Shown here in pieces: positions 12,532-56,821 of a stretch of DNA of 64,000 nt. Source of the DNA: Mesostigma viride (Eukaryota; Streptophyta; Mesostigmatophyceae; Mesostigmatales; Mesostigmataceae); the NCBI GenBank assembly GCA_009746045.1, contig RPFO01000667.1, positions 3,174,273-3,238,272 on the forward strand, written 5' to 3'. The notes under the pieces were generated by a model, which was not told the origin of the DNA, searched no databases, and was given only the letters and a program-made list of their open reading frames with translations. Both the position numbers and the translations under genes were made by a program. Position 1 is the first letter of the stretch. Every line of letters starts with the position of its first letter.

Positions 12532-15500
12532 CTATGAGATAAAGGCCTTCTCCAGTTCAGAAAAAAGGAAGGTGGCATCTGTTCTGGGGCAGGACACCTT
12601 GCCATTGTTTTTAGCAGCCATCTCCTCCATGGCCTGCACGCACAAGAAATGTTGGAAACATATTATATAAGGAACTAAAAATAAGAAGATCAAGGATTTA
12701 TGCCAAGGCACCCTGTTTTCCTCAATTAGTCGCAAGCTCTGGATAGCATATACCGAACAAAGGTACTGGAGAACAAGCTCATGTAGACATCTCCAAAACA
12801 GTTACCTGCAGCTTACTTTGGAAGGCGGATCCTGGCATCGCCATCTACAAGGCAGGGGGGAAACATGCTGACGCATGGGCTATGACAGCACATGCCACAT
12901 AATGATCAGGATGGCAACAGGAAACGCACCGCGCTCCTGTTGATGAGATCGGTGGGCTGGGTATTCCCTCAAACTAACTTGGCCATGTAACCCTGGGGCC
13001 GCCATGAATTCTGGGTGCCCAAAGAAAGAAAGCCTTACACGTGCTGCTGCAGTGGCACGAACATGGCTAGGACAGTACCAAGCTCTGAGCTGTCTACCCA
13101 ACAGCAAACACATGGGACCACACGCATGTCTCCATCACCAGGCCAGCAGGCACAAGCGATCATCCGAGCAAGCGAATATCCGCCCAGATCTGCCTTATCG
13201 TATTACTGTGCAAATATTACATTATATTCCATTATTGTGCTAAGTGTTTTCCCACCAAGGACCAGCCCAGCCACCTGAGCACAGTAGTGATAGTAGTTAT
13301 AGTATTATAGTAGTTATAGTAGGGTTTTACCAGGACGAGTACAGGACCAGCACACTAGTTATAGTAGGGTTGTACCAGGACGAGTACAGTACCAGGACCT
13401 ACCCATAACCACAAGCGGTTTCGCGGCTTTGTCCCCCCTCCATCCATCCATGGGAATATGTGCTACATGATCTCCCAACGGAGTCATGTTATAATTTAAT
13501 TTATTTTTTTTTTTTAATAACCACAAGGTTATGGCGAGGTTGAATCTTTCAAGCACTTTTAGTCCCGCTCAATGAGCTGGATTATTCCCGGTCCCGGCAA
13601 CCATAACATCGGTAAAATCTCAGGAGTACCCGGACCTGGTCCTGAAAACCAGGGATCCAAGCCTACTAGTGCCTTCCACTCAACTTCCAACCGCCCTACT
13701 CCCTAGACGACCTCATCCACCGCGCCGCCTCACCTGTCAGCTGCGCAATAGCCCCCCCCCCCCCCCCCCCCTCCCTTCCCCCCCCCCTTTCCCCCTTTAC
13801 CTTGCGGCTGTACACACCCTTCCTCATGGGCTTCCTACAGCGACAACAACCACCACCACAGCCACCCCCTCACCTTGCGGCTGTAAACGTGCTTGCCCAC
13901 GCGCCCACCACAGCCACCCCCTCACCTTGCGGCTGTAAACATACTTGCCCACGCACCCACCACAGCCACCCCCTCACCTTGCGGCTCTAAGCGTGCTTGC
14001 CCACGCGCCCACCACAGCCACCCCCTCACCTTGCGGCTCTAAGCGTGCTTGCCCACGCGCCCACCACAGCCACCCCCTCACCTTGCCGCTGTAAACGTGC
14101 TTGCCCACGTGCCCACCACAGCCACCCCCTCACCTTGCGGCTCTACACGTGCTTGCCCACGCGCCCACCACAGCCACCCCCTCACCTTGTGGCTCTAAGC
14201 GTGCTTGCCCACGCGCCCACCACAGCCACCCCCTCACCTTGCGGCTCTACACGTGCTTGCCCACGCGCCCACCACAGCCACCCCCTCACCTTGTGGCTGT
14301 AAATGTGCTTGCCCACGCACCCACCACAGCCACCCCCTCACCTTGCGGCTGTACACGTATCCGTTGGGCAGCACCATCGGCGGGTTCTCGTCCGTCATTA
14401 ACTCCCCGCTGATGCGGCACACCAGCTTGGAGTGCATGTGCTTGGCGGTGGGCAGGGGGGCCGCCAGCTGGCGGAAGGAGGGCAGGTGCAGCGGGTCGTC
14501 GATCGAATAGTCCTCCTCGTTCGCCACGCTGGAGCACGTGCAAGTGGAGGATTTAACAAGAAACGAGCAAAGGGACAACCAAGTCTAAGGGGGGGACCAT
14601 GTCTAATGGGGCAACCATGTCTAATGGGGCGACCATGTCCAAGGGGGCAACCATGTCCAAGGGGGCAACCATGTCTAAGGGGGCAACCATGTCCAAGGGG
14701 GCGACCATGTCCAAGGGGGGACCATGTCTAAGGGGGGACCATGTCTAAGGGGGCAACCATGTCTAAGGGGGCAACCATGTCCAAGGGGGCGACCATGTCT
14801 AAGGGGGCAACCATGTCTAAGGGGGCAACCATGTCCAAGGGGGCGACCATGTCCAAGGGGGGGACCATGTCCAAGGGGGGGACCATGTCTAAGGGGGCAA
14901 CCATGTCTAAGGGGGCAACCATGTCTAAGGGGACAACCATGTCCAAGGGGGCAACCATGTCTAAGGGGGCAACCATGTCTAAGGGGGCGACCATGTCCAA
15001 GGGGGGGACCATGTCTAAGGGGGGGACCATGTCTAAGGGGGCAACCATGTCTAAGGGGGCAACCATGTCCAAGGGGGGGACCATGTCTAAGGGGGCAACC
15101 ATGTCTAAGGGGGCAACCATGTCTAAGGGGGCAACCATGTCTAAGGGGGCGAACGTGTCCAAGGGGGCAACCATGTCCAAGGGGGGGACCATGTCCAAGG
15201 GGGCAACCATGTCTAATGGGGCAACCATGTCTAAGGGGGCGACCATGTCCAAGGGGGGGACCATGTCCAAGGGGGGACCATGTCTAAGGGGGCAACCATG
15301 TCTAAGGGGGCAACCATGTCTAAGGGGGCAACCATGTCCAAGGGGGCAACCATGTCTAAGGGGGCAACCATGTCCAAGGGGGCGACCATGTCCAAGGGGG
15401 GACCATGTCCAAGGGGGGACCATGTCTAAGGGGGCAACCATGTCTAAGGGGGCGACCATGTCCAAGGGGGGACCATGTCTAAGGGGGGGACCATGTCTAA

Positions 15501-18500
15501 GGGGGCAACCATGTCTAAGGGGGCAACCATGTCCAAGGGGGGACCATGTCTAAGGGGGGGACCATGTCTAAGGGGGCAACCATGTCTAAGGGGGCAACCA
15601 TGTCTAAGGGGGCGAACGTGTCCAAGGGGCAACCATGTCCAAGGGGGGACCATGTCCAAGGGGGCAACCATGTCTAAGGGGGCAACCATGTCTAAGGGGG
15701 CAACCATGTCTAAGGGGGCGACCATGTCTAAGGGGGCGACCATGTCTAAGGGGGCAACCATGTCTAAGGGGGCGACCATGTCCAAGGGGGGGACCATGTC
15801 TAAGGGGGGGACCATGTCTAAGGGGGCAACCATGTCTAAGGGGGCAACCATGTCTAAGGGGGCGAACGTGTCCAAGGGGGCAACCATGTCCAAGGGGGGG
15901 ACCATGTCCAAGGGGGCAACCATGTCTAATGGGGCAACCATGTCTAAGGGGGCGACCATGTCTAACGGGGGGGACCATGTCCAAGGGGGCGACCATGTCT
16001 AAGGGGGCGACCATGTCCAAGGGGGGGACCATGTCTAAGGGGGGGACCATGTCTAAGGGGGCAACCATGTCTAAGGGGGGGACCATGTCTAAGGGGGCGA
16101 CCATGTCTAAGGGGGCGACCATGTCTAAGGGGGGGACCATGTCTAAGGGGGGGACCATGTCCAAGGGGGCGACCATGTCTAAGGGGGGGCAACCATGTCT
16201 AAGGGGGCGACCATGTCTAAGGGGGGGACCATGTCTAAGGGGGGGACCATGTCCAAGGGGGCGACCATGTCTAAGGGGGGGCGACCATGTCTAAGGGGGG
16301 GACCATGTCTAAGGGGGCGACCATGTCTAATGGGGGGGACCATGTCCAAGGGGGGACCATGTCTAAGGGGGCAACCATGTCTAAGGGGGCGACCATGTCC
16401 AAGGGGGGGACCATGTCTAAGGGGGCGACCATGTCTAAGGGGGCGACCATGTCTAAGGGGGGGACCATGTCCAAGGGGGGGCGACCATGTCTGAGGGGGG
16501 GACCATGTCTAAGGGGGCGACCATGTCTAATGGGGGGGACCATGTCTAAGGGGGCGACCATGTCCAAGGGGGGGACCATGTCTAAGGGGGGACCATGTCT
16601 AAGGGGGGACCATGTCTAAGGGGGCGACCATGTCTAAGGGGGCGACCATGTCTAAGGGGGGACCATGTCTAAGGGGGCGACCATGTCTAAGGGGGCGACC
16701 ATGTCCAAGGGGGGGACCATGTCTAAGGGGGCGACCATGTCCAAGGGGGCAACCATGTCTAAGGGGGCGACCATGTCTAAGGGGGCGACCATGTCTAAGG
16801 GGGCGACCATGTCTAAGGGGGCGACCATGTCTAAGGGGGCAACCATGTCTAAGGGGGGGACCATGTCCAAGGGGGCGAGCATGTCCAAGGGGGGGACCAT
16901 GTCTAAGGGGGGGACCATGTCTAAGGGGGGGATCATGTCTAAGGGGGCGAACGTGTCTAAGGGGGGGACCATGTCTAGGGGGGGGACCATGTCCAAGGGG
17001 GGGACCATGTCTAAGGGGGGGACCATGCTAAGGGGGCGAACGTGTCAGAAGGGGGGAAACACGAGGGGCGATTTTGCAAGGAATGGAGGAAGGCGTAACG
17101 GGGCCGAGGGGGAAGACGGGGCACAAAGCCACACGGGGGAGCAAGGGGGCAGCGGTAACAACAAGCGTACATGGCCAAACCAGCATGAAGGCGGGCACGG
17201 GAAGTCCATGGGAAACCGGGATTGCAAACTGGCGAATAGAACACGTGGTAAACATGGCTTGGTGACTCATTGCCCAGGCAAGGGACACAAAACCCAGGAA
17301 AACGTGCTGGAAACTTCCAGCACATTGCTTCTTAAAAATTGACAGCCCCATCCACTCGTGAAGCGCCGCACGGATACCCCTGGCTGTGCTTCTTGGTCAA
17401 TAAAGTCCTAAGCACATACGGCACCTTGAGCATTGACAACAACACCCACTCGTCATAAAGCCCATTGACTAGCCCCCATGCGCAACCACTCTGGCTCTGA
17501 CATATGTCTACTCCCCGTCACGCACGGCATCCTGAGCGCCCACTCCCCATGACACCTGTGTCAATATACAGCAACAACTCCGGCACCGCTACTCCCCGTC
17601 ACGCACGGCATCCTGAGCGCCCACTCCCCATGACACCTGTGTCAATATACAGCAACAACTCCGGCACCGCTACTCCCCGTCACGCACGGCATCCTGAGCG
17701 CCCACTCCCCATGACACCTGTGTCAATATACAGCAACAACTCCGGCATCGCTACTCCCCGTCACGCACGGCATCCTGAGCGCCCACTCCCCATGACACCT
17801 GTGTCAATATACAGCAACAACTCCGGCACCGCTACTCCCCGTCACGCACGGCATCCTGAGCGCCCACTCCCCATGACACCTTTGTCAATATACAGCAACA
17901 ACTCCGGCACCGCTACTCCCTGTCACGTACGGCATCCTGAGCGCCCACTCCCCATGACACCTGTGTCAATATACAGCAACAACTCCGGCACCGCTACTCC
18001 CCGTCACGCACGGCATCCTGAGCGCCCACTCCCATGACACCTGTGTCAATATACAGCAACAACTCCGGCACCGCTACTCCCCGTCACGCACGGCATCCTG
18101 AGCGCCCGCTCCCCATGACACCTGTGTCAATATACAGCAACAACTCCGGCACCGCTACTCCCCGTCACGCACGGCATCCTGAGCGCCCACTCCCCATGAC
18201 ACCTGTGTCAATATACAGCAACAACTCCGGCACCGCTACTCCCCGTCACGCACGGCATCCTGAGCGCCCACTCCCATGACACCTGTGTCAATATACAGCA
18301 ACAACTCCGGCACCGCTACTCCCCGTCACGCACGGCATCCTGAGCGCCCGCTCCCCATGACACCTGTGTCAATATACAGCAACAACTCCGGCACCGCTAC
18401 TCCCCGTCACGCACGGCATCCTGAGCGCCCACTCCCCATGACACCTGTGTCAATATACAGCAACAACTCCGGCACCGCTACTCCCCGTCACGCACGGCAT

Positions 18501-21500
18501 CCTGAGCGCCCACTCCCCATGACACCTGTGTCAATATACAGCAACAACTCCGGCACCGCTACTCCCCGTCACGCACGGCATCCTGAGCGCCCACTCCCCA
18601 TGACACCTGTGTCAATATACAGCAACAACTCCGGCACCGCTACTCCCCATCACGCACGGCATCCTGAGCGCCCACTCCCCATGACACCTGTGTCAATATA
18701 CAGCAACAACTCCGGCACCGCTACTCCCCGTCACGCACGGCATCCTGAGCGCCCACTCCCCATGACACCTGTGTCAATATACAGCAACAACTCCGGCACC
18801 GCTACTCCCCGTCACGCACGGCATCCTGAGCGCCCACTCCCCATGACACCTGTGTCAATATACAGCAACAACTCCGGCACCGCTACTCCCTGTCACGTAC
18901 GGTGTCTTGAGCGCGGACAGCCCCGCCTGCAGGTACAGCGACAGCAGCGGCTGCGTGGTCAGGTTGGCCAGCCGGTAGTTGTCGAGCTGGAACTGCTCCA
19001 CTAGCGACCGCCACTGCGACTTGCAGAACAATTGCTGGTGATGGAGATGGTGAGGTGGAGGGTGGGCAGGGGATGGGGGCAGGTAACAGCATCCAGAAGA
19101 GGAGCCACACGGGATGCCAAGTGGCAAAACGTGCGAGCACCCAGGGTGAGACCGTTGCAGGCTAGGGATGGGACCCGCCAGGGACTTGGGCAACCAGACC
19201 GTCTACGCTCAAAACATTTCTTGGGTTGGAGGTATGCAGAGCGGGCGGCCATGCCCGGCGAGACAGCACCCTTACCACACATACAGGCCAAGATTTCGCA
19301 AAAAGAAAACTTTGAACATGGATGCTGACCCCTACACACAGGCGGCGTTAGTGCGCGGCTGATCTCGTTTGCCAGCGATGGACTTGGCAAGAGTTGACAG
19401 GTCAATTTATGAGCACCTATGTCGTTGCACTTCTGTACATAATAAATAAATAAATTAATTCTGTACAGGAAGTAATAGGACTTGGATATCTCACCGAGGT
19501 ACACTTCGCTCGTGTGGTACATATTTCCTCCTTGCCACAGGCACGCCCCCTTACCCACGGTGAAGACAACGACAACCTAACTCAGTGCTATTCTTTTAGC
19601 CCAACCATACAAATATTTTAATGCTATCACCCTTATTCCATTCGCGCAAGTGCGATCACCCCAAGTGCCATCGCCCTTATTCCAGGCATCATATCAAGAA
19701 ATTGGGCGTTTTACATGGGGTGTACACATAGGATCTTATAAATGGGGTACAGATATTGGGCACCCCTTGATTGCAGAGCCATCCTGCATGCGATCGTTGT
19801 CTAGCCCACCCACCCCGCCGACACACAAACCCATCAGCGCCCAAGTGTATCAGCGCAGAGCTGGCACAGAAAACTCTTGCTACAATTCCTCCGGCTGATG
19901 CTCGACACGTAAGCATGCACTTGACATGCTCTTCACACGCTTCTCAGCGCAAACTTGTTGCACCCTCACCACGCCGTATGTGCTTCGCAACTTAGTCTCC
20001 ACTCCCTCGTCTGACCCCCACGTTTCCATCCACCAAACAGGTGCCCCCTCCATTCCCTGTCACCCATCATGTATACAACCATCACCACCCTCCCTGCCAC
20101 GTAAGCATTCCTACCCTTTCCCCCCTTCCCCCCCCTCACTTAACCACCATGTATGCATCCCTCCACCCCCATTCCTCATCCACCCACCCCTATTTCCCTC
20201 TCCTGCCCACCCTCCCCCATTTGTCAACCCACCGCGTACGCCGGGCACGTCGTGGTGGGCTTGAACGCCAGCAGCGCAACGGCCTGCTGCAGCTCCTGCA
20301 TGTGCGTGGCCCCCCAGGGCGCCAGGTGCTTGCGCGCGTACGAGATCGCCTCCATGCGCTGGTTGGACCGCACCAGCTCCACAAACTCCTGCACGCGCAG
20401 CCGGAACTCAAACTTGCTCTGGCGGGCGCAGCCACAGGCGATGACGAGAGGTGGAAGGTGAAGAGCAGACATGACAGGGATGACAAGGCAGGAAAGGACA
20501 GAGAATGAACGTGAGGAGACGGGAAGGCAAAAGATGAGAAAAGGTAAGGAAAGAGAGGAGAAGAGAGGGAGAGGCAGGCATGACAGGGGGCAGTCAAGTA
20601 CTAGCGGTCCTAAATCACCCACAAATGCATTCTAGATATCGCCCACCTGCCCCCACCTTGAGCTTCTTCAGGCGCGAGCGGTTGTGCACGCACCTTCCCC
20701 CCTCCCTTAAACAGCCCATCTAAGAAGCAGCCCCCACCTTGAGCTTCTTCAGGCGCGAGCGGTTGTCGGCGCACCACGCGAGCGCCTCGCTGGCGTCGCA
20801 CCGTCGCAGCGCGTCCACCACCTTGCAGGCGGAGAGGAACAGGTCCAGGTCCACCAGCTCCTGGCGTACGGCACACAGGCATGTACACAAGCAAGACAGC
20901 GCATGAACAAGCCAGCAAGAGGGGGACAGGTCTCAATCAAACGAGCTCCTGGTGTACGGCACACGTGCACACAGGGGGCATCCACCCATGCATTCCCAGG
21001 CAAGCGCAGCATTGTGAGAACAAGAAAGCGAGCAGGGGAACAGGGGGGAGGTCCACCAGATCCTGCGTACGGGGATGCCAGCACAGACACGTGGACAGGC
21101 AATCGCATGGCATGTGTGCTCACAGGCAAGCATGACATTGTGCTAGGCTTCGCGATGCGCCCCTTCTAGTGGGGACAAGCACACAAGGGGAGAGAACCCA
21201 CTGTGCTAGGCCACCCGCAAAGGCGAAGGCAAAAACAACCGTGGGACACCGAAGGCGCAAAGCACACGAGTATGCACAAGCAGGCACATATTTAAACAGG
21301 CAAACAAGCAAGCAGGGGAGCAGGAACAGACAGGGGAACAGGGGGCCAGCGCATGCCAAGCAAGCATGTGTGCACGGGTGTGAGCAAGAAAGCCAGTGCG
21401 CTAGCAACGCAACGAAGACCATGCAGGAAATCGCAGCAGGAATCATTGGCTCTTGATAAGAGGAAAAGAAAAGCAAATGAGAGGCAGTGAAATGTCCAGC

Positions 21501-22441
21501 AAAACCACAATATACAGATGGACGCTTCTGGGGCCTACCCAGATACAGCCTTAGAAGGTATGGTACACCCCACAAGACTCATGGCACACAATCAGGAGAC
21601 AGCAGGGGGCTTAAGGTCCTTGCCCTATTGGTCTGCCCTCCTACTTCCATGAAAAATCAGGCAAGAAGGCAGCGCTCTTCTTGAGAACGTGGGCTTGCCC
21701 ACACGTGCTGGGACGGGCCACAGGTGTATGCTAACGCATGCACAACCAGAGAGCAAGGCTTATTAAAGACTCATTGTCAACATTTGTACGAAGTGCCACT
21801 AAACAACACGAGCCGTCACAGTTTACATGGTTCACCATTGTAAACCATACATGACGCTTCTTACGTAAAGGCGTACAAGCGTGGATGCGCCTCACCTTGA
21901 TACCTGCACCCTCCGCATACTTGACGGCAGAGTCGTAGTACCCGCAGCGGAGCATGTAGTCAATGATAATACGATCCACCCGTGTTTCGTTCCACCGCGC
22001 ATTTCTGTCGTTTTCGCTGAGCGCGCCCAGGTGTTCCAGCCGAGCACGGCAGCGAGAAATTTCCTTCTCCTCGGAATCGTTGGTCTCGTCCAACTGGCAC
22101 ATGAGGGAACATTTTGCAAGCAGGACGCAAAGTTATACATATGATAAAAGAATCTCCGGCATCTTCTTTTATCAGAAGTAGCACCACATCTCAGAAACAG
22201 TTATAATTCTTACCTTCCGCTTCAAACCCTGGAGTCTGTCGATTAAACTATCTAGATGCTTCTCCGCCTCTTCCTTGGTGAAATCCTTGACATCCGCATC
22301 AGTGAATCCACTTAAAATGGCGTTGACGTCTTTCTCCGCGATCCGGGCTCGCGTGCGGAGCAACTTCTTCAGATTCTCATAAGGAACTTGCAAAATTGTG
22401 GTCTCGATTTTCGGTGCCGATGGCAAATTGCTAACCTCCAT
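12532..22441 (-). CDS. MAEA/GID9-like subunit of the GID/CTLH E3 ubiquitin ligase
   Basis: Seven exons on the minus strand give about 380 codons with consistent phases: 22441-22214, 22093-21896, 20860-20738, 20418-20233, 19019-18901, 14528-14342, 12633-12532 (TAG). The start is the ATG at 22441 (MEVSNLPSAPKIETTILQVP). Exon 2 carries a LisH motif (RIIIDYMLRCGYYDSAVKYA), exons 3-4 the CTLH region (LAWCADNRSRLKKLK, FEFRLRVQEFVELVR), exon 5 the CRA-like segment (LQAGLSALKT), and exons 6-7 the degenerate Gid-type RING (HSKLVCRISGELM, PPMVLPNGYVYS, KVSCPRTDATF). Known homologues pair with an RMND5-type RING to ubiquitinate metabolic and developmental targets. Length is near the family norm of about 400. 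The N-terminal acceptor of exon 5 is the least certain boundary. Introns 5 and 6 are swollen by minisatellites built partly from the exon edges. Confidence 0.88.
13416..13516 (+). mobile_element. 101-bp LINE-B 3'-end insertion in MAEA intron 6
   Basis: Flanked by the 11-bp duplication ATAACCACAAG (13405-13415 and 13517-13527). It holds only the LINE-B 3' UTR end, hairpin and T-rich tail, in antisense orientation to the host gene. Confidence 0.85.
13796..14341 (-). repeat. 52-bp minisatellite carrying copies of the MAEA exon 6 splice donor
   Basis: About ten tandem units of roughly 52 bp abut the end of exon 6. Read on the gene's strand, each unit holds TACAGCCGCAAG or a close variant followed by GTGAGG, which is the last codons of exon 6 plus its 5' splice site. 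Copies start near 13800, 13875, 13926, 13978, 14030, 14082, 14133, 14185, 14237 and 14289; the genuine junction is at 14342/14341. The outermost copy reads GTAAAG instead of GTGAGG. The GT is kept in all copies. Confidence 0.92.
14583..17040. repeat. 18-bp G-rich minisatellite, about 135 units, in MAEA intron 5
   Basis: The consensus unit is a run of 5-7 G, C, A or G, then ACCATGTC, T or C, and AA. Variation is mainly in G-run length and three transition sites. The array ends about 55 bp from the exon 6 acceptor (14529). Because 18 is a multiple of three, both strands show long artificial reading frames (MSKGAT and MVAPLD repeats). The G-rich strand is the template strand of MAEA. Regular G-runs make quadruplex formation plausible. 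Confidence 0.95.
17505..18905 (-). repeat. 81-bp minisatellite derived from the MAEA exon 5 splice donor
   Basis: About 17 tandem units of 81 bp (two are 80 bp) run up to the end of exon 5. On the gene's strand each unit contains GCGCTCAGGATGCC followed by GTGCGTGAC, matching the true exon 5 junction GCGCTCAAGACACC followed by GTACGTGAC. A unit near 17926 shares the GTACGTGACAGGG variant with the true site. Two variants (a missing C near 18028 and 18270; A to G near 18107 and 18349) recur 242 bp apart, showing a three-unit block duplication. The plus-strand 27-residue repeat frame (MTPVSIYSNNSGTATPRHAR...) is a by-product. Confidence 0.92.
20653..20775 (-). repeat. Duplicated MAEA exon 3 end with splice donor
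   Basis: A 36-bp sequence covering the last ~30 bases of exon 3 and the start of its donor (CTCAAG then GTGGGGG on the gene's strand) occurs twice, at 20653-20688 and 20731-20766, 78 bp apart. The upstream copy is the real junction at 20738. Confidence 0.85.
20849..21075 (-). repeat. Degenerate copies of the MAEA exon 3 acceptor in intron 2
   Basis: The real acceptor region (near 20851-20880, gctcctggcgtacggcacac on the plus strand) recurs as gctcctggtgtacggcacac near 20943 and, more diverged, as ccaccagatcctgcgtacgg near 21054. Intervening caagcag/cagcag-rich sequence also repeats. Confidence 0.65.
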
Positions 22442-23677
22442 CCTAACTTAGAGCTGCGAAGAAAAAACAATTGCTAAGATATCAGGGTGAAAAATCATGG
22501 CCGAAAATCCTTGCAGAAGCACAGTAAGCATCCTATAATTCTCATGCCGGAATTTGCAATCATAGCCATGCAGCCATTGCACCAAAGAAATTTTTAACGT
22601 CCCCGGCTACGACTGCCCCGCTGACCGACCATCACCACGAAGATGCCTGAAGCTAATGCTTGTGCTGTCATCATGCAGCTACATTCGCCGCGCCGCGCCT
22701 CGTCATTGTACATCCGCCACGTCGCGTGTCCTAATTGGATGTGGTTCGCAGGTGCTGATAATCCTCAGCAAGTTCCCCTGACTGACTGACTGAACTCTTC
22801 AAGTAGTCATCGTACAGTACTCGAGTTGAGTTGAGATGAGTTGAGTTGAGTGAATTCCCGCGCCAGTGGTCCGACAGGGTTCATCGTACTTGGGCGAGCT
22901 TCACGCTGACCCGCGTGGCCTGGGCGTAGACGGTAATACCGTACTACCGTCGACTTTCGAGATTTGGTTGGTGAAGTTGTTGCAGTCTTGCCAAATGCCA
23001 AATTCTCCGCCTCGGCCGCGAGCCTCGGCCCTTGAGAATGAACGAGACGACTCACACCTGTAGGCTACTTGAAAGTTTGAAGAAGAAGCACGGCTAGGAT
23101 ATGGAGCCCTGGTCGACGCTGCCTTCTGAGTAATGAAACGTTGGCATACGTCTGACATTAACTCGACTCGGGGAAGCCTGGTTTAAGGTTGTTGTGGGTG
23201 TCAAATTGGTTGCCTTCTCGTCGTTCATTCAGCAGAATGTATCTAGTGCATCCTGATTGTTGATTACGTTCTGATTTTTGAGCCTCCTGACCGGCAAGCA
23301 CGATACGGTGATATTCTAGCCACGTGACGACAGCCAGTTGGCGAGGTCATATCCTGAGTCGTCCTTGGACATTTTGTTACACCTCCGTTAAATCCAAATT
23401 TTGCTTTACATCACGAGCACCATGCGTACTCGCCAGTACAAGACCCCGCCATCGAAGGTATAATTACGCCGACGTCAGTAGAGTGTCGGGGCTTTTTGCC
23501 TGTCAATTGATTGTCATGTTTCTTCACCTTATGTGTACTAATGGTATAGGGGTACACCGTTACAGGGGCTTTAGAAAGCAGCGATGATCTACGTTTCTCG
23601 TGCAAGCTCCGTTATCTAAACTGGTTTGTGGTTGCGTGGCTGGAATATCGCGTGGATTTTTTGCGCCGAAACTGCAG
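22442..23677. promoter_or_regulatory. Divergent intergenic region between MAEA and the lysine-rich gene
   Basis: The two genes point away from each other, so this interval should hold both promoters and the missing 5' exon of the plus-strand gene. An ATG at 22498 followed after nine codons by GTAAGC is one possible first exon, unproven. A gagttgagttgagatgag microrepeat lies near 22826-22852. No TATA box or other element could be assigned. Confidence 0.35.
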
Positions 23678-26061
23678 GAGAAAAGTTCGACAGGCACAAT
23701 CAGGGAGCAGCACGCGGGAAATGCCGCGAAAGTTGAAGCTGCAACTGTCACTGGCGAAGTGCAGAGAGCCTCGAAAATGAAACCCAAGGTATTGGCCAAA
23801 GAGCAGTCTCCAGCCGGCGCCAAGCCCACTAGCGGGAAGGAGAAAGGAGTGCGGAAGCAGGCCGAAGCGAAGAAAAAAGGGAAAGAGAGGGTTGGCACGC
23901 CCCCAGCAACCCTACCAGACATGCAAGGAGTGGAGGGTTTGCTTCCGGACAGCATTGTGCAGGCGATATCCGGGAAGAAACGGTACGTGCCACTCCCTCT
24001 AGCTTGACGGAAATGAGGGCTGTCCGCATGCTTCTGGGACCCAGGTCGCCGTCGTCCCCCTCCCCCCGCTCCCCACTCTTGGCGTTAACTCTCTCCATGG
24101 AGGCACACACAAACTGAAGGAATGAATACTGTCGCCTGCACACAGGGATCTACTCCTCGCCCTAGATAATTGCCAGGACGTCCGCCCTGTGGGGGCTGGC
24201 AGTGCTCCCCGTATATGTTGTCGCCTGTCTCGTTGCACCAGCGCGCACCACACACCAGCGCGCCTAGTCATACCAGTCTGCATTGTACAACCCACCGCTG
24301 CTGGCATCCGTGGGACCACCCCCCCGGTTACCAGACATGCGTGGTGTTCCATGGGTTGGGGATGCCAGGCTTCTACAGCCACGATCATATCTGTGATTAA
24401 GGACTATTTATGGTTATCCCTTGGAAACCCTTGCCCTGTACTGATATACCCGTCCGACCCCAACCGCGCAGTCGGGGGACGGTTATGAGAGTGTAGGTCA
24501 GGTCGCACAGTAGAATGCTTGCGCACGTCACAAGGGTATGTGCAGGCTCACGTGACTGGCTCCCCCGGCATGCTGCGCGCATGCACGGCGGATATTCTCC
24601 CGGTTACTCCAAAGCACTGGTTCCTCTCAAGTACCCCGGGTTTTACTTCTTCTGAGAAAAGGGGCCTGCCACGCTGCCTGCTGCGCACATGTGCGGCAGA
24701 TGCCAGCAGACGCTTGCATTGTCCTGTATGACAGAGCATCTGGTGAACATGTACCTGAGCTTCTCACGCCATCTCTCGCCACCTTCGCATCGTTCCCTGG
24801 TGCTCACATCTGGCTGTTGGCCACACAGTGCCTGCACTCATGGCGGCTTTATCTTGTGCTGCCCCGTCGTGTGCTGCCCCGTCTTGTGCTGCCTGGATAA
24901 GTCCGCCCTGTGAGTTACCTCGGGTTCACGTCAGCCATGAAATAATGCACTCCCATGCTCGCGGTAGATGCGCTCGCGAGAGCATTTCTCGTGTTCTTGT
25001 GCAACCATGCTGATGAGTGAGATGCGCTGACAAGGGCCATATGCCGTCATCATCTGGTCGCTCGTGTGCCGCAGGCATGCACCAGAGGGGCACCCTGCGA
25101 GGGACGCGGCCGGCGCGGGACACCCTGCTGCTGCCACGATCGATGGCCGCGCAGACCACAAGAAGAAGCGCAAGAAGCCGGCACCTGGGGACGTGGTTGT
25201 GAGCGCGTGAGTGCGGCGCGATGTTTGGTTGTGAGCGCGCGAGTGCGTGGTGGGGGGAACAGTCCTGGCATGTGATGGCCATGGGTTTTGGGTCGACGTA
25301 AGTGCACGCGTGGGTGCGACGCAGTCCTATGTGTAGGTGCATGACTAAGGTGCTTTGGGGTGTGCAAATGTGGAGTGCTGTAGTTGTTGTCGGAGTATGG
25401 TGCTGTTCTGAGTGATGGTGTGTGCGCGTGTGTGTGTGTGTGTGTGTGTGTGTCATCATTGTCTGTGGGTGTGGTGTTGGCTTCCGACCTTTGTGCCCAC
25501 TTTGCCATGCCCATCTGGGCCAGTGCCTAGCGGTGGTGACCACGGCTTCCTGAGGCATATCCGTTCTATTTCTCTACTGGCATGGGTCGGAATTTGTGGG
25601 CAAGCCAGGATATCAGGCAGCCAGTGCTACACTCGATGCTTGTTCTGTCACTGCTGCAGACTGTTAGACTCTATTTTGCTGCGGGCAAGGGCATTCAAGT
25701 ACAATTTTTATGGGGGATTTGGAACCCATTTACTTGTTTGACCATCAAGTCCAGTTCACGCCATGGAACGCTGATCCCAACAGCCTTGCTCATGCGGCTT
25801 CAGCTAACCTGTGCGCTCCTGCCAATCGCATGAATTGCGCTATTATTTTCATGCTGTTGTCTGCGCAGTGCCAAGGCGGGGGTAGATATCCTGCTGCTGG
25901 GCGACACCAAGGCGACGGGAACGGCCATGCCGTCCAGTGCAGCACTCGAGTTCTCCAAACAGCGCTTTGCGGCGGGCCCGACAGGACGAAAGCGGTCCCT
26001 GGACATGTTGAATACCAGGAAAGGTTGCAAAGTACCTGTGGCATTCATGTCGAGGTCATGA
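23678..26061 (+). CDS. Unrecognised lysine-rich protein, three exons seen, 5' end missing
   Basis: Exons with matching phases: 23678-23982 (acceptor ctgcag; ends phase 2 before GTACGTG), 25075-25206 (acceptor gccgcag; ends phase 2 before GTGAGTG) and 25869-26061 (acceptor tgcgcag; TGA). The product is rich in Lys/Ala/Gly with basic clusters (KQAEAKKKGKER, ADHKKKRKKP), a short hydrophobic stretch (VEGLLPDSIVQAISGKK) and a C-terminal part reading AKAGVDILLLGDTKATG then ALEFSKQRFAAGPTGRKRSL. Composition and layout are like small nucleolar or ribosome-biogenesis factors, but no family was identified. Whether the last exon continues to this TGA or splices again near 26021-26034 is open. The exon ending at 25206 has its donor duplicated about 34 bp downstream. 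Confidence 0.6.
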
Positions 26062-26337
26062 GTGCATAGGTGCTCTGATGGGGATCCGTATGCGCTGCCA
26101 TCCAGCACTCCTACCATTGCTGTTCTATCGTAAGACACGTTAGCTGGTTAAACCCTTCGTTTTCCCAGGTTCTGACAACCTGGGGTCAGTGGGGTGAGAG
26201 TAGTGTCTGGCGTTGTTGTGGGCATATTTCTTCCATTCATGAAGCTGTCTGGTCGGGATTCAGCAAGCAAGGGACGCTTATTCCCAAATTTCAATGGGAA
26301 GGGCAGAACAGGCCCTTGTATTTATGGGTACTCATAT
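26062..26337. other. 3' flank of the lysine-rich gene
   Basis: No coding signal. It ends where the repeat X copy B begins. Confidence 0.3.
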
Positions 26338-27960
26338 TATCAAGGAGACAACCAGGGCAGGCTAGAAATCGGGAGAATCCGGACCATGGTAGCTCGAGCC
26401 TGCCGTTATCTTGTCCGCGTTTTCGAGTCGGGGTAAAATTGGCTCTTTTTTAGCAAATTTAGCAAATTAGCAAATTAGCGGAAGGCGGGGGCCGAGATTA
26501 ATTAAGAGGTACCTTGAAATTAAATAAGACGCATACCTCTATCGAGATATATGTTTGGAGGCAAGTTTCTATTGGCGTTAATTTGTACTATTGTACGACA
26601 ACTGTCAAGGGTGACGGCATGTACTGAAATCGCGGATACTTTCTAGATCGATTGCGCATTCGACGGTTAAAAGGCAGAGCTGCGGTTGAAAGTACTGTAC
26701 GTGGGGGGGGACGGTGTTACAACGGGGGGGGGACGCATTTATGGGGGGGGGGACGGTGTTACAACGGGGGGCGGTGTTACAACGGGGGACGGTGTTACAA
26801 CGGGGGGCGAGATTAATTAAGAGGTAAGTTACCTTGAAATTAAATAAGACGCACGCCTCTATCGAGATATATGTATGGAGGCGAGTTTCTATTGGCGTAA
26901 ATTTGTAGTATTGTACGAAAACTGTCAAGGGTGACGGAAAGTACTGAAATCGCGGAAGTGTCGCGGGGACGTTTCTACTTTCTAGATCGATTGCGCATTC
27001 GACGGTTAAGAGGCAGAGGTGCGGTCGACTGGCAGTACTGTACGACGGTGTTGGACGGAATTTCCGGTTAGCGATGCGGTATAAAGCTTTGCATGTCACG
27101 TTGTCGGATCTTAGCCCTTGCGTCGCGCTATGCTGTGGCGAACTTATTCTCCGCCGTCAGATTGCACCGTCGATGAGCGTCGATGCTCGTCGATGAACCC
27201 AACGCAAGCCATGTGACGGAAAGAAGTAAAAATTGGTGCGGCGGCCTCTAAGGCTGAGTTTGGTAAAGTACGGAACTTGTAGCCCGGCGACTCCGCGTCG
27301 AGCAGTCCGCAGGTAGTCCGCCGGCGTTAATTTGTTAATTTTGTTAATTTGTAAACTGGGGACAACCTAGTCGGGGTAAAATTTCGAGTCGTTCAGGATG
27401 ATGAATATGAATGGAGATGGAAATGTGTAGCCTTGTGCATTGAAATTATGGCTGGCTTACGTGTAGAGCGACTAGATGACCTAGACGGTGGGGCCGGAAA
27501 CAGCTTGCTTGATCAGGGCGTGTGTTTCGAGCCTAACTGGCCGGGAGTGTCTAGTGGTGAGCACCATTGCTGCGATCGCTCTCCCACCATTTACGAGGAA
27601 ATACCCGCAAATGGACCACTGAAAAGGTCTAGCTAGTCAGCCATTACGTTAGCCATGCCATGATTCCAAACGTCCAAGAACTGCACACGGTGCAAAGGCA
27701 AAAATCCGCAGGATAGGACTTTCAACTGTGCGGCGGGATCCAAAAGCCCGCGGATGCCAGAAAACATCGTGTTGCTGCAGCGACGCGACGATGTGGACAA
27801 CGAATCCAGTGCCAAGCTCGGAACGTCCGCAAAGGAGATCTGGCATCACAGGGTTCAGATGTGCGGAGATACTATGCGATCCAGCCGGTCCACGACCCAG
27901 GTTTGTAGAGCTTGTGCCAAGGGGCAGCACCGAACAGATGTGACTCATATTATGATCAAA
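26338..27960 (+). mobile_element. Repeat family X, copy B, interrupted
   Basis: It starts with tatcaaggagacaaccag and matches copy D (35100-35942, reverse) along its length apart from a 951-bp insertion. Short conserved frames include MAGLRVERLDDLDGGAGNS and NWPGVSSGEHHCCDRSPTIY, and a frame near 27660-27960 with clustered Cys/His. Copy D preserves more of it (NCTRCKGKKPEDSTFKC). It looks like a decayed element that once encoded a Cys-rich protein. I cannot assign a class; terminal repeats and target duplications were not found. Confidence 0.55.
26431..27381. mobile_element. 951-bp insertion with 9-10 bp target duplication
   Basis: Flanked by TTTCGAGTCG at 26421-26430 and 27382-27391; comparison with copies C and D shows the uninterrupted site. 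Target duplication length is like Mutator-type elements, but the element ends share GGGTAAAAT in direct, not inverted, orientation. Subterminal AT-rich blocks (caaattagcaaattagc at the left, gttaattttgttaattt at the right) are roughly inverted. The interior has two ~150-bp direct repeats (about 26500-26650 and 26810-27010) and several gacggtgttacaac units separated by G-runs. There is no coding capacity. Confidence 0.6.
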
Positions 27961-28449
27961 TGACCACAGTTTGTAAGATACTGAACCAATAAATACAATT
28001 AATACCTCTTGATTTGCTCGAGGATATATTGTTGAGTTATAACATTAATTTTACTTCCTCGTTACATCTCTGGCCTGAGTAGGTTTCGCTTGGCGCCTGG
28101 TATGTACCGTCGGGACTGTGCGGCGAATGGTGGTGTCTACACACCAGTATGTATCGAGATCACTTGCTGATGTCCTGCCATGTTCTGATTTTCTACCGGA
28201 TCTACTGATTTTCGGCAGCCACTAGTTGTCTCACTTTATAGCATACACTTGGCAATGTACGTGGCACCCAAGGCCTTGTTGTTGGCAGCGCGTAGTGCAG
28301 TCTCGACTTGACTAGGCGTGGTGGAAATTTGTAATGATCACGTTGATCGAACATTTGCAATAGTTGCAGAAGAATTGGCAGTCAACAGGTAACCTTAATT
28401 TAAAAGCAGATTTGCGTGTGACAGTGGTAACTGAAGTCTGATCTAGCAA
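27961..28449. other. Spacer without recognised features
   Basis: AT-richer sequence between repeat X copy B and a family E repeat. No gene or repeat was recognised. Confidence 0.3.
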
Positions 28450-28580
28450 GCTTAGGCTAAAAGTAAGTAAGTACTTACGTGTCATGCGCCTGGGCAATGG
28501 GCATGCCACGGAGTACTGTCATGCTAATCTCATTAGAAAATAATTACACGAAAACAAATATCGTCTCCATCGTGCCCCAA
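28450..28580 (-). repeat. Dispersed repeat family E, second copy
   Basis: Reverse-orientation match to 10245-10375, with the same gcatgccc...gcgcatgacacg hairpin and adjoining aagtaagtactta simple repeat. Confidence 0.6.
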
Positions 28581-28606
28581 CCATATAGTCACTCTTTCCG
28601 GCCCCG

Positions 28607-28797
28607 CCGTCTAGGTCATCTAGTCGCTCTACACGTAAGCCAGCCATAATTTCAATGCACACGGATACACATTTCCATCACCATTCATCTTCATCATCCT
28701 GAACGACTCGAACACGCGGACAAGATAACGGCAGGCTCGAGCTACCATGGTCCGGATTCTCCCGATTTCTGGCCTGCGCTGGTTGTCTCCTTGATAT
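28607..28797 (-). mobile_element. Repeat family X, copy C (partial)
   Basis: Close match to 35744-35942. It is truncated at 28607 and ends at the ctccttgata terminus shared with the other copies. Confidence 0.65.
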
Positions 28798-28959
28798 AGT
28801 CACTAGAGGGGGATATAATCCTCATCTGAGCTGTCCTCTACTGTATATAATGGCAGACGAGGCGGTAGTGTAGCGGCTATCCTCAGGGGCAACAACCTCC
28901 ACCTGCGGACTTCTACCCTGCATTATACCAATGGGCCGCGGGGCCCGTTGGGAGAAAAC

Positions 28960-29735
28960 AGGAGCATGCCCCACAGGAAGGTGCTTATCGCAGACGGCAT
29001 GCAGCCCATTTCTCCTTGTCTATGGTGCGGGCGTGGAGTACAGATAGTTCCAGAATCCCTGCATCCTCAAGCAATTGTGTCACATAGGTCCCGGGGGTCG
29101 CGCCGCGGCGGTGCGGGGCGCGCGCAAGTTTGCCAGTGGGTTGCGACGGGACAAGGGGACCCTGCCATAGGAGGACCTCCGTGTTTACCTGGTTGGCCAG
29201 CCCTAAACCCGCCCGCAGGGCCCACATGATCGGTATTCACCTGGTCTGTGCGGGCAATCTTGATGGCCGGCAAAGAGCCGGAGGCGGCGGTGTCGGATGG
29301 TATGGGTGACACGGGGGAGCTTGCAGTAGAGCTCCGGCTCGGCCCGGGTGCGGCGCTCTGGTAGCGGACGCCGAGGATGTGACGGAGCATTCGAGCGACT
29401 GTGCCGTCAATGAGCTGCCTGCTCAGCGCCTGGTCCAGGGTCCACACCTCGCAGCCGTAAGGGAGGATGCTGAGGACAAGGGCCTTGAACAGAATGCGCT
29501 TGCGCCGCTCACTCAGGTAGCGACATGCATGTCCAAACCTGTCGAGGCGGCGGACGGCCGCCCAGGCCTGGCCAATGCGGGTGTTCATGATGTCGTCGGC
29601 CGTGGAGGGGAGCCAGCTGCCAAGGAGCTTGAATCGAGTCGCTGCATGGGGGGGGCGGTGCTGCCGTCGATCCAGCAGGAGGAGGGTGGGTGGGGTGGTC
29701 CCAGCGGGGAAGCCGATGGCCAAGGATAGGCCATA
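28960..29735 (-). pseudogene. LINE reverse transcriptase C-terminal half (third subfamily)
   Basis: Minus-strand reading gives TRFKLLGSWLPSTADD, ILFKALVLSILPYGCEVWTL and GTVARMLRHILGVRYQ, the same order as LINE-A (VKLLGSLLPS..VD, FKVLVLPVLTYGAETWTL, GAVTNMLRSIFRVGY) but clearly diverged. The frame then decays. The catalytic half is missing. Confidence 0.7.
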
Positions 29736-29927
29736 TAAAAGGATGAACGCAATGCCATGAGGGTCATTTTTTTTGTTCAGTTTCTTTACTCACAGACAGC
29801 CAGTTTGTCGTCTTCCGACGGAGATGAATTGGACAACGAGGCGGCACCCGTTAGCAAGACCTGTGAGTCAAGAAGGTTTTGTCAAGTGATGAGGATCTAC
29901 AAGAGTACACTCCGTGGTTGGATCGAT

Positions 29928-31711
<1,784 letters not shown>

Positions 31712-32765
31712 TATGTCGCGTCTGCGTACCACAATCTCCGGCGCCACCATGGCGGCTGGCCATGCTCAGCTTTGGTAAAACCCAAATGAGCTGAGCTGAC
31801 ATGCCTGCCTTAACTGCATGCCCGGTGGGGTGGGCGAGGACCTGTTGTCCCATGATTAACGAAAGGAGGGTTCTCAGCCGAGGACAAGGAACTGTCCCTC
31901 GTTCCTGATGACCACGTTATTGATCCCCTTGTGTACCGTCACGTGCCGCGTTTGACTATCCTTGCTGGGGCGTTAGCTAGACGCTCCAACTAATCTAATT
32001 GCGACAATGATGATGGTGCAAGATGATGCTTTTGCCTCCCCTGCTATAGAACAATGTTTTCACAACACACACTTTGCACAGTCTGATGATGAAGCCGCAC
32101 ATGCGGAATTTATTGAGAAAGTTAATAGTTAATACAATTACAACACGTTGATAGTCTCAATATCGATGCACTCCATGCTCACGAGCCCGCAGTTAGGCAG
32201 CGCTCCATGACATGCTACCGGCCTTGCTCCCAAGGAAAGGGAGAAACACGAAGGCCACTAACGAGAGACTCGAAGAGACTACACGCTACGTGAGAGTCCT
32301 CTTCGACTATGAACCAAACCATTCGTCATGCCACACGCATGACACACGCCACACTTGTCAGTCCAGCCAGGAATGCCAAAACTATCTTGCTGCCTGAACC
32401 ATGCAAACAGAAACAGCATTCCAGTTGCCAACCTGGCTTACTACCACACATGCCAACAAAAACAGAAAGGCATCCCGACAAATCTAAATTGCTACCCTGT
32501 TGCCGATCTCATCTCCTAGAGGCTCCGGCATTTCTGTCGATCCCTGGGAATGTCCGGCATTTAGTCACGACCACCAAGGTCGAAGCATAATATCCTTCAA
32601 ACAATCTGCACGCTCACACCTTGCGTGTGAGTGGCCCAGCAAACATTGCTTCTAATCTTTCAGTTTCTAGAAGAAATCCCTTTGTAGGGCTGCCAGCGAT
32701 TTCGCATTCATTCCAGCGATCTGGCTCCGCACCGCAAATTGTCCAGTTTTCCATTTTCTGTCCAG
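31712..32765. other. Spacer without recognised features
   Basis: Reading frames are short and without family resemblance; no tandem structure was seen. Confidence 0.3.
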
Positions 32766-37144: not shown

Positions 37145-38740
37145 GTCCGCCGTCAGCCATGTAGTCCGCGCATGGCTAGGCATGGACCTGTGCTACTCTA
37201 GACGGGGCGGGCAAACGCCCGGGGAGCCCCCTGGTTTGTCTGTAATATGGAGACATGCAGATGACACGTAAAGACAGGTGGCAGCTAGACAACTTAACTA
37301 ATAATACCGTAGTGGCTCTTATACGTGTACGCTTAATTATTGTACGAAGAGTTTTTGGAATTTTTGTTACGTGTACGCCAACTTTCGGGAATAATTTTTA
37401 CAGTACGTACGTATACTGTCAGGGTATATTCAGGGGTACCTAGTAGTAGTTCGCTGGCACACAGGGACTGCGGCTGCAGAAACCTTTGGCGGGCGTCCAT
37501 GCAACCGGGCGTTTGATGGGCTTGGGCACAGCGGCCAGCCAGTCGCGCATGCGCTCAGCAATGCCGGGCGCATAGCGCGGATCGGAGGAGGGAGGGGCCG
37601 GGACGTGGTATAGTGCCAACAACCACTGTGGGCTGGAATTTACCCCACAGCCCGTCCAGAGTCCGCTGCTTCTTCTCGATCAGTTCTCACCCATAGCTAC
37701 CTACCTACCGCGACGAGAGAACCCACCACGATAGGCACCTTACCTTACCGGTTATCCCCACAGATCAGCGATGTTTGCGCGCGAATTGAAACAGTTGGCG
37801 GCGGACCGGTCTACTCGTGGTAGACCCGGTCACGTAGATCGACCCCGAATAAAACTTTAAGTAGCGCAATCGATAGATCTCGCCGAGAGGATTTCAGATC
37901 ATACCTTAGGTACATAATAGTACATTACTACGGTAAAGTGTGATTACGGTTACAAAACTGGTGAAAATGGCTCTGACGTCAATCATTGACGCCAACCAAG
38001 CCGTAGTAAGTAAAGAATGGGAAGTTGGACAGGGGGGGCATGAGGGGGGGTCCAATCTCAAGTATAAGTAGCGCAATCGATAGATCTCGATGCGAGCATT
38101 CCGGATCAGCCTCTAAAGTGCCCAAAGATGTCCGATTTCGGGAATTACGGGTCAAAACCAAACGTCATCTCAGCCAAAAATTAAAGAATTTTCCGAAAAG
38201 TGCATTTTCGGCTGTAGTAGACCGGTTCGCCGCCAACTGTTTCAATTGTAGTTTCGCAGCCTCCCGCTCGAGGCCTCAAGCCCTCAACACAGCTCCCGCG
38301 CTGCGCCGCGCCGGTTCAAACTCGCGCCGCGCCATTGCTAGGTCTGCGCTGCGCTGCGCCGGTGGCTGGTGGCACCTAATTTTGAGGTGTACGAGGCCAG
38401 ACGGAGGTTTTTTTGGGGCCTGTACGAGGGCGATTCGTACATAATTATGCGTACTGATATAAGAGCCACTATGGTAGTTGTCTCACTTCATTAATGAAGG
38501 ACACCATCCCCTGGCAGCGTCGGTGGGGGCTCCGCGTGTGAACAAATTTGGCATGCATGCATAGCGATTCGGGCAATAGTGCTCGCAACGTACGACGCAA
38601 CCCTGTAACTAGGCACTAGACTGATAGTGATAGCTACCCCATCCACCCCATCCCTGAGGAATTATTATGCTCACGTGACGCAGTTACGTGTAAATAAATA
38701 AGTAAATAAATGATGAATTCTGTCTCAGTGGAGTGCGACA
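37145..38740 (+). mobile_element. LINE-D 3' fragment interrupted by a TIR element
   Basis: The left part (37150-37289) reads LCYSRRGGQTPGEPPGLSVI like the minus-strand copy at 4336-4755. The right part (38483-38740) continues with the following residues, a 3' UTR, the CACGTGAC hairpin at about 38673 and a TAAATAAATAAG tail. The break falls between residues matching KDRWQ and TPKSVG of the other copy. Confidence 0.65.
37290..38482. mobile_element. TIR element (~1.2 kb) nested in LINE-D
   Basis: Terminal inverted repeats of about 45 bp share GTAGTGGCTCTTATA (with G/A at one site) and GTACGC.TAATTA.TGTACGAA. The left arm has an extra ~11 bp after ACAACT. Inside lies a second inverted pair of about 33 bp (37786-37818 and 38216-38249, tgaaacagttggcggcg), plus a repeated gcgcaatcgatagatctcg (37865 and 38070). 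No transposase was recognised. The class is uncertain; the target duplication could not be settled. Confidence 0.6.
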
Positions 38741-38785
38741 CTACAAAAGCAATTTAGTAACCAAATTAATGGCGACATCTGACAA

Positions 38786-38832
38786 TTAATTAATGAATTA
38801 ATTATTTAATTAGACTCGTGCTCCCGTTGGTA
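38786..38832 (-). mobile_element. Minimal 47-bp LINE-A insertion
   Basis: Flanked by the 12-bp duplication GACATCTGACAA (38774-38785 and 38833-38844). The insert, read on the minus strand, is only the last 18 bases or so of LINE-A (ccaacgggagcacgagtc, starting within the hairpin loop) followed by its TAAT-type tail. Confidence 0.85.
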
Positions 38833-38844
38833 GACATCTGACAA

Positions 38845-39639
38845 GCTAGTAGAATGCTTGAGCATGAGGCTGGCATGTGGCATGACTGCAATGTTCAGTC
38901 GGCCAACCGTGAACCGGGGCCCTCCCCCCTAGATTATTATGCTAGGCAATTAGACTCACCTAGATAGGCTTCTTCACATCAATCTAAGGCTTCTCCTAGT
39001 ATGGACGATGGGGAAGCCTTACTCATGCATCCGCCATCCATGATGCTGGAAGCTTTATTGCAGTGACCCATAATAAATAGTTGTTTCACTTAATACCATA
39101 GTAGTTGCTAGACTCTCCCAGAGAGCAGTTTCGTTGAACGTCTGGCCTGCTTTTTGAAGGCAGTGGAGATTCCTCTAGGCTGTGCACATAAAGGTCGGTC
39201 ATGCTTGGGTAGCGCCATATGGCATGCTTCGGCGGAACCGCCTACCTCCCGCCGGTAACTCAACGGCCTACGTAAGATTTCCGTTTCCGGGGGAAATGGC
39301 GTCTACCCACCAAGCGGGTCGACATGGGCCACTCGGCTAACCGGGGACGAATGCCGCACTTCATTTACTCCTCGGCCCTTCCTTCCGACCCCCCCCCACA
39401 AACAGAAGCTGCACCAGGGCAAAACGGCAGCAAGTCCATTTCCTTGTGCCCTGCACCGAGGCAAGCAACCCGGCGGCCATAGTTCAGGCGGTGCGGTGTG
39501 AAGCGAATCGATAGCATACTAGGCAACACCGCGTAATTTTTATGATTCGAGGACCGAGGTATGATTTGCAGTTTTAGCAGGAGGCCTTCTTGTTTTCCGC
39601 TGCTGTTATGACTCAGCCGACTACAAAGTGATCAGGTCA
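38845..39639. other. Spacer without recognised gene
   Basis: Contains a GC-richer stretch at about 39200-39530 that shows no reading frame or RNA fold that I can name. Confidence 0.3.
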
Positions 39640-39975
39640 TCAGGAGCATCTCCTCAGTGTCATAAACGACCGTCGAGGTCGTCGGTGCCCCATCGTATGA
39701 TCCCGATGATTTTTTCTCGGAGAGCATCGCCACTCTGGCGCACTTCATTGGCTACAGCGTACAAGCTTGCAAGGGTGTGTGTTCGTATCCAGGTGTATTC
39801 CGACGACTAATAAGCAGTGTCCTTGCCATAGGCCATAGCCCATGCATGATCCTGTAAACACAAGTACTGAGATCAGCCCGCTCCAGTTCTGCCTGCAGCA
39901 GTTCGTCCCACAAATCAAATTCAACTGAATGTAGCCAAATGTAGTCAAATATCCTAACCGTCACCTTGGAAAGCT
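39640..39975 (-). pseudogene. Decayed coding fragment, unrecognised
   Basis: Minus-strand frames read FDLWDELLQAELERADLSTC and MHGLWPMARTLLISRRNTPG, then after a frameshift TLASLYAVANEVRQSGDALR and EKIIGIIRWGTDDLDGRL. Composition looks protein-like across a single +/-1 slip near 39770. No family was identified. Confidence 0.4.
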
Positions 39976-40562
39976 TTTTGGGGGGTCAAATACCAAAATA
40001 TTTATTGCTTTTGGTCATGGTCCCTGCTTTTGGTGCATGCTTTTGGTCATCGTGAGCCCATGATCGGTGAGGATTGAGGAGGCAGGGAAGCCCATGTCGG
40101 CGTACAAGTAAAAACCCAGCAGGCAAGTTTCCCGGGAAAAAAATTCGCGGGAAAGTGCCTAGTTCAGCACTGTGAACGCCAGCAAGTTCTTTGTATCGAA
40201 CGTCGCGATGCAAGGCATTCGTACATAGGCCGAGTTGTGAATGATACGGCTTCCTGGATATTGGCTGCAAACCGACAGAAGGGAGACCTGCCAGCCTAAG
40301 CTTTGACCTAATCTATTGGCTTACGTGAGTTACGTCAGGAATGCAGGAGCCAGGCAATTAGTGCAATTTCTGTACCTTGTCGCTTGCGGTATCCCCGCCA
40401 AGCGAGCAGGTTGGTCGATAAATATTCAGGTCACGCGCGATGCCATCGGTGTTCGCTGATAATTGACTTGCCCAACGCCTTGGAAAGCTGCAGCCTCGTA
40501 TAGTCCAACTAGCTCATTTGACCTCAGCGTTACCACGCTTGGAAGGTCCCCAACCCCGTGAA

Positions 40563-56821
<16,259 letters not shown>

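Follow-up and report, generated by a model that had tools for sequence, protein, structure and literature searches.

Why should the end of an exon, together with its 5' splice donor, recur inside the intron that follows it? This question is raised by a 64,000-nt stretch of DNA (hereafter the window) from Mesostigma viride, a unicellular streptophyte alga. An earlier note on this DNA had reported that exon edges, and donors above all, are duplicated into the adjoining introns of three unrelated genes, namely those for MAEA, SSADH, and a lysine-rich protein, and it had proposed a genome-wide process of duplication followed by slippage. Intron growth is mostly discussed as the result of transposon insertion. 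Direct duplication across donors would constitute a second route, and in this streptophyte, which branched early and has long introns, it can be read and counted from sequence.

Gene models and genomic setting

The assembly scored here comprises 440 Mb in 2,243 contigs. In the available part of its report, the published PacBio and optical-map assembly of Mesostigma is given as 441.8 Mb, with a mean intron length of 1,142 bp and with repeats making up 30.1% of intron space (PMC6947507). Copied splice sites are not mentioned in the accessible portions of this paper or of another, on Mesostigma strain CCAC 1140, which has also been sequenced (PMC7027972). The titles returned by literature searches include nothing on exon-edge copies in this alga, which is weak evidence of absence.

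All three genes match public Mesvir1 proteins, and their exon edges are secure (Table 1). The hand-joined coding sequence of MAEA is identical to jgi/Mesvir1/24631 over 385 amino acids, and a spliced aligner reproduced its six introns with the proteins of Marchantia (59%) and Klebsormidium (55%). SSADH, whose exons are numbered from the one at 40563, has 575 amino acids and is 100% identical to jgi/Mesvir1/24633; the introns that the spliced aligner derived from two homologues are those of the public protein over the portion covered. Intron 6 of this gene is a GC-AG intron (46219/46220, CAG/GCAAGG, with the slash at the junction), in agreement with the public protein. The lysine-rich gene corresponds to jgi/Mesvir1/24632 (176 amino acids), with 100% identity over the aligned 79% of a 211-residue query, and the first exon of the gene model is absent from this public protein.

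The window also holds reading frames for reverse transcriptases of the non-LTR type. One of these, at 57628-58701, matches Pfam RVT_1 (E 1.6e-7), and others were recognized by translation at 30150-31360 and 1511-2512; the frame at 1511-2170 gave no Pfam RVT_1 match. Long (TAAG)n runs adjoin the copy at 30150-31360, and an imperfect, C-rich repeat built from GCCCCC covers ~430 bp at 60132-60563. The same contig carries a virus-like stretch about 10-20 kb before the left edge of the window (L012:83-910 on the minus strand and L012:6792-8006 on the plus strand). There, one frame weakly resembles a Pox_A32-type packaging ATPase (E 1.4e-4, below the curated cut-off), and a long neighboring frame has no Pfam match. 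Contigs C2011 and C1671 carry long intronless ALDH or chaperonin frames that are bacteria-like, and these are possibly contaminant contigs.

Copies of exon edges in adjoining introns

Copies of exon edges in adjoining introns are real. Each of the 21 donors and 21 acceptors of MAEA and SSADH was compared with 200 segments of other introns, and all of these controls were beaten by 10 of the donors and 4 of the acceptors. The donor copies reported earlier for MAEA exons 3, 5, and 6 and for SSADH exons 4, 5, 11, and 14 all scored above the controls, as did the acceptor copies of MAEA exon 3 and SSADH exon 5, the latter with a one-base shift of the junction. The donor copy reported for the lysine-rich gene is likewise supported (Table 1). 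Two further copies on the earlier list did not survive the comparison. A weak donor copy of SSADH exon 6 scored 9.0 against a control 95th percentile of 11.2, and an acceptor copy of SSADH exon 10, also scoring 9.0, was matched by the 12.5% of controls that were equally good. A donor copy of SSADH exon 2, located 915 nt downstream, is an addition to that list. The acceptor of SSADH exon 11 also beat its controls (11.8 versus a maximum of 10.8), and SSADH introns 1 and 13 did so narrowly, with neither reaching the junction-crossing threshold applied later.

Chance likeness as the source of the copies is ruled out by these intron-segment controls and by resampled introns. When introns of up to 2,500 nt were resampled and the exons kept, 0.07 donors were crossed per replicate (30 replicates), compared with 14 observed. 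Similarly, 60 Markov resamples of 21 MAEA and SSADH regions gave a mean of 1.1 arrays, versus 25 observed, and 0.07 donor-crossing arrays, versus 7 observed.

Table 1. Positions in the window of the gene models, of the copied exon edges, and of the associated arrays
Feature	Position	Strand	Original, size, or basis
MAEA gene, 7 exons	12532..22441	-	jgi/Mesvir1/24631 and spliced alignment
MAEA exons 1-4	22441-22214, 22093-21896, 20860-20738, 20418-20233	-	
MAEA exons 5-7	19034-18901, 14528-14342, 12633-12532	-	
Lysine-rich gene, coding part	23777..26061	+	jgi/Mesvir1/24632
SSADH gene, 16 exons	40563..56821	+	jgi/Mesvir1/24633
MAEA exon 3 end and donor, original	20730..20775	-	
MAEA exon 3 end and donor, copy	20649..20694	-	46 nt, 93%, 81 nt downstream
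MAEA exon 3 acceptor, upstream copy	20941..20969	-	original 20853-20881
MAEA exon 3 acceptor, second upstream copy	21049..21065	-	202 nt away
Array starting within MAEA exon 5 (donor after 18901)	17508..18914	-	81 bp x 17.4
Minisatellite in much of MAEA intron 5, unrelated to exon edge	14578..17055		18 bp, ~138 copies
Array starting 17 nt within MAEA exon 6 (donor after 14342)	13853..14358	-	52 bp x 9.7
Lysine-rich exon end (last base 25206) and donor, original	25194..25215	+	
Lysine-rich exon end and donor, copy	25226..25247	+	22 nt, 95%, GT changed to GC
SSADH exon 2 end and donor, copy	42423..42445	+	original 41508-41530
SSADH exon 4 end and donor, copy	44287..44306	+	original 44248-44267
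SSADH exon 5 start, upstream copy	45194..45210	+	original 45274-45290
SSADH exon 5 end and donor, copy	45428..45442	+	original 45350-45364
SSADH exon 11 end, diverged copy, donor GT lost	52453..52484	+	original 52365-52396
SSADH exon 14 (ends at 55389), diverged tandem copies across its donor	55374..55493	+	50 bp

Orientation, length, and spacing of the copies

An orientation scan of 68 exons (12,025 bases) yielded 50 matches between an exon and an adjoining intron, all of them sense and none antisense. Forty matches, from 15 exons, reach the donor end, and 7, from 5 exons, reach the acceptor end; the remaining 3 stop 14-48 nt short of the donor. Among the 68 exons there was no case of an exon tail in the upstream intron or of an exon head in the downstream intron. 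Matches to other introns within the same gene (6 sense, 5 antisense) are at noise level. Repair capture that acts in either orientation and on any part of an exon was considered and rejected on these figures, with 47 of the matches at an edge and 3 within 48 nt of a donor.

The copied exon tails measure 5-38 nt and are shorter than expected if their lengths were drawn uniformly, with the spacing or the exon length as the upper limit (KS P 4e-5). In 12 of the 15 introns whose donor is crossed by a copy, no likeness above shuffles extends leftward beyond the copied tail, and in MAEA 5, MMSDH 7, and VCP 4 such likeness may exceed shuffles. Copies are located 32-915 nt from their source in these 15 cases, and thus all lie within 5 kb. 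The nearest copies are contiguous in three cases and spaced in the other 12, where 9-892 nt of sequence without recognizable likeness lies between them, although decay blurs the breakpoints. Because the intron sequence of both copies decays, the stretch between them may in part be what is left of a longer, decayed unit rather than inserted filler. The donor GT is kept in 12 of the 15 nearest copies, as judged from alignments read by eye.

Arrays that begin at exon ends

At MAEA exons 5 and 6 and SSADH exon 14, the exon end and donor belong to the unit of a donor-spanning minisatellite. The two MAEA arrays, as measured (Table 1), bear out the reported range from one copy to arrays of 10-17. The exon 6 array contains nine further donor copies, every one reading AAG/gtgagg. 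In the exon 5 array, the exon-derived part of the units carries changes. Because these units are ~98% alike and share changes that are missing from the exon, the copy was made first and amplified later. Duplication across donors, with amplification in some cases, is supported in unrelated genes, and simple slippage is compatible with these three exons; in the other 12 donor cases the nearest copies are spaced.

The arrays originated locally. Among the best candidates scored, nothing else in the genome matches the 81-bp unit, and a variant of the 18-bp unit has 29 exact genome matches, all of which fall within MAEA intron 5. A weak likeness (67%-73%) to the 52-bp array of MAEA exon 6 was seen at C1579:3185457-3186829, possibly marking a MAEA paralogue there. 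Introns that bear arrays are longer than those that do not, with medians of 954 versus 364 nt (33 versus 21 introns). This agrees with the earlier suggestion that arrays inflate existing introns, though long introns also have more room for arrays.

Donors, acceptors, and intron interiors compared

Counts were made on 57 introns from ten loci of one genome, 24 of them in the window and 33 outside. The latter derive from four sets of gene models: MMSDH (7 introns, 57% identity to the human reference), a portion of VCP (5 introns, 84% identity), a portion of the clathrin heavy chain (14 introns of at least 70 nt, 59% identity), and four weakly modeled ALDH fragments (L033, L036, L037, and L040; 7 introns, 31%-47% identity to the reference). 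These weak models were kept and supply 2 of the 6 donors crossed beyond the window. Two clathrin introns that begin with GC were also kept, though they may be alignment artefacts. Clathrin intron 1 (<70 nt), low-complexity matches, the EF2 intron, and a fragment of a chaperonin gene (L049), whose two introns include one with a doubtful GC donor and none with a crossed donor, were excluded. A coding-potential search of 200 kb from other stretches of the genome, partly N runs, mostly returned repeats and virus-like or transposon-like frames, and it gave no usable gene models.

Unrelated genes commonly carry copies that cross a donor. Of the 57 introns, 15 have a crossed donor, compared with 3.8 predicted from intron interiors, whereas acceptors are crossed in 4 of 57, compared with 4.4 predicted. 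For window genes the corresponding figures are 9 of 24 donors (2.26 predicted) and 1 of 24 acceptors (2.52 predicted). Outside the window they are 6 of 33 donors (1.51 predicted) and 3 of 33 acceptors (1.85 predicted), and in the three best outside models 4 of 26 (1.16 predicted) and 3 of 26 (1.37 predicted). In the 14 short introns of the clathrin heavy chain there is a single array, and no donor is copied. Across nine scoring settings, the donor ratio of observed to predicted ranged from 2.8 to 4.4. Crossings peak at the junction, from 1/51 at -60 and 5/56 at -20 to 15/56 at 0 and 7/57 at +20, and they amount to 5%-15% from there as far as +200. A count based on arrays agrees with this arm-based one: 56 arrays in 54 introns cross 12 donors and 3 acceptors, with 3.0 expected for each.

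Duplication across donors in unrelated genes extends beyond the three genes first described; judged from these ten loci, a genome-wide process may be at work. The priority of donors over acceptors is evident in the pooled counts and in the window, but it is not matched outside, where six donors versus three acceptors is no difference (P 0.51, 33 introns). The pooled donor excess leans on the window, which was chosen for showing the pattern.

Explanations for the donor copies

The explanation we favor, and consider probable, is that short local duplications arise in these genes, that they are harmless when they straddle a donor, and that a few are amplified into minisatellites. Short stretches, with a recognizable length of mostly 15-52 nt, would be copied nearby in the same orientation, in many cases with other sequence lying between source and copy. 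When such a stretch straddles a donor, the first copy would still supply the end of the exon and a functional donor, and for this reason the protein would be unchanged. The second copy, now within the intron, would decay, and in a few instances the duplication would expand into a minisatellite that lengthens the intron. The duplications may stem from the repair of breaks with staggered ends or of paired nicks, and slippage or unequal exchange may amplify them; this mechanism we infer from one genome's sequence, in which no breakpoint was seen. Duplications internal to exons would presumably be removed by selection. A duplicated donor should be tolerated because the first donor stays in place, whereas a duplicated acceptor should cause mis-splicing because a complete acceptor then precedes the correct one, and mis-splicing may therefore act as a brake on acceptors. 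The exon copy, moreover, does not drift, which by itself may double visibility: pairs with one member in an exon would remain recognizable for roughly twice the time of pairs that lie wholly in introns. The selective account of donors over acceptors leans on the window genes, and the lack of any donor copy in the clathrin heavy chain counts against the favored explanation.

A different reading, which we think rather unlikely, holds that 5' splice sites are themselves mutational hotspots. Transcription or splicing would cause duplications centered on donors, through a paused polymerase, R-loops, or nicking at the junction, and introns would grow from the 5' end. Stated for the genome as a whole, and with the same doubt, Mesostigma donors would be hotspots where the donor and the final 5-40 nt of its exon are copied downstream, seeding intronic minisatellites. 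The junction-centered peak and the short copied tails agree with this idea. The size of the donor excess must be read with the visibility bias noted above in mind. With a twofold correction for visibility, the 15 donors still exceed the 6.8 expected (P 0.0002 and 0.0004), and with a threefold correction they exceed 9.7 (P 0.014); the twofold correction leaves acceptors in deficit (4 versus 8.0 predicted, P 0.048). Against a hotspot, the thresholds were fixed after the window was seen, and decay of unconstrained intron sequence can by itself yield right ends near the splice consensus. Outside the window, moreover, the twofold correction gives 6 donors versus 3.0 (P 0.046, 33 introns), and in the three best models 4 versus 2.3 (P 0.17, 26 introns). 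A donor-specific hotspot and an acceptor brake are both possible, and neither is established beyond the window, given these P values and donors that are not clearly above acceptors there.

In three further proposals the copies would be by-products or signals of something else. If transposons or other elements had inserted at donors, the copies would be target-site duplications. Direct copies on either side of other sequence, as seen in 12 of the 15 crossed donors, and the reverse-transcriptase frames within the window are what such insertion could leave. Yet the stretches between copies have one 15-nt match in common, none of the 11 that exceed 40 nt (donor and acceptor cases) has terminal inverted repeats, and several, at 9, 10, and 19 nt, are too short. 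We thus rejected insertion as improbable for want of related inserts or terminal repeats, in a small sample from which old insertions could escape. That selection maintains the copies, in the role of decoy or alternative donors, seems to us a shade less credible still. The retention of GT in most nearest copies and the identical donors of the nine MAEA exon 6 copies would suit such a role, but identities of 73%-100% give about this retention without selection, and young arrays are alike in any case. Use of a later donor is predicted to truncate the protein in 5 of the 7 exons tried (MAEA exons 3 and 5 and SSADH exons 5, 11, and 14); for MAEA exon 6 it would change the C terminus, and for SSADH exon 4 it would add 13 amino acids in frame. 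The public MAEA, SSADH, and lysine-rich proteins use the first donor. Least credible of all, and very remote, is that the copies are left over from introns gained when AGGT segments were tandemly duplicated (the Rogers model), a link that the earlier note had drawn. Although 29 of 57 donors read AG/GT, the predicted signature is an exon tail at the 3' end of the intron and the head of the next exon at its 5' end, and either one occurs in 0 of 57 introns, whether in register or within 80 nt; we have dropped this link.

Implications and comparison with known systems

Copies of this kind indicate that introns can grow without any change to the protein. If the hotspot reading were true, the splice junction would be a mutagenic site that ties transcription or splicing to intron growth. 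Two questions become testable: are 5' splice sites mutagenic, and does the first-transcribed donor win among identical donors in series?

Several known processes resemble the one proposed here. Fill-in at breaks by Pol alpha-primase produces small tandem duplications among human and plant insertions, according to the available part of the source, and these share with the Mesostigma copies that they are short (<100 bp), direct, and local (PMC8355091). Unlike those duplications, many of the Mesostigma copies are spaced, and they are known from the sequence of one genome; a bias to donors is not part of that work in the portion seen. Strand-annealing repair in primates captures nearby DNA, and in the portion of the account available the copies likewise come from within 5 kb and include intron splice sites (PMC2671141). 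That process can invert sequence and copy whole exons, whereas the Mesostigma copies are sense and comprise exon edges only. Dual-specific splice sites in UBC repeats, as described in the accessible text, also present serial splice signals in a tandem array, but there the repeats are coding and the introns are multiples of the unit, while Mesostigma arrays start at an exon end and are intronic (PMC10809524).

As far as the partly seen accounts go, AGGT intron gain shares with these copies the duplication of sequence across the junction of exon and intron, of which potato RdRp is an example; that process creates a new intron, and the Mesostigma copies sit in existing ones. A further likeness to the arrays is provided by human IFI6 (6-16), in which a minisatellite supplies several splice donors. 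In both systems, an array spans an exon-intron boundary and the donor is repeated. IFI6 represents one gene, whereas in Mesostigma several genes are affected and most carry a single diverged copy.
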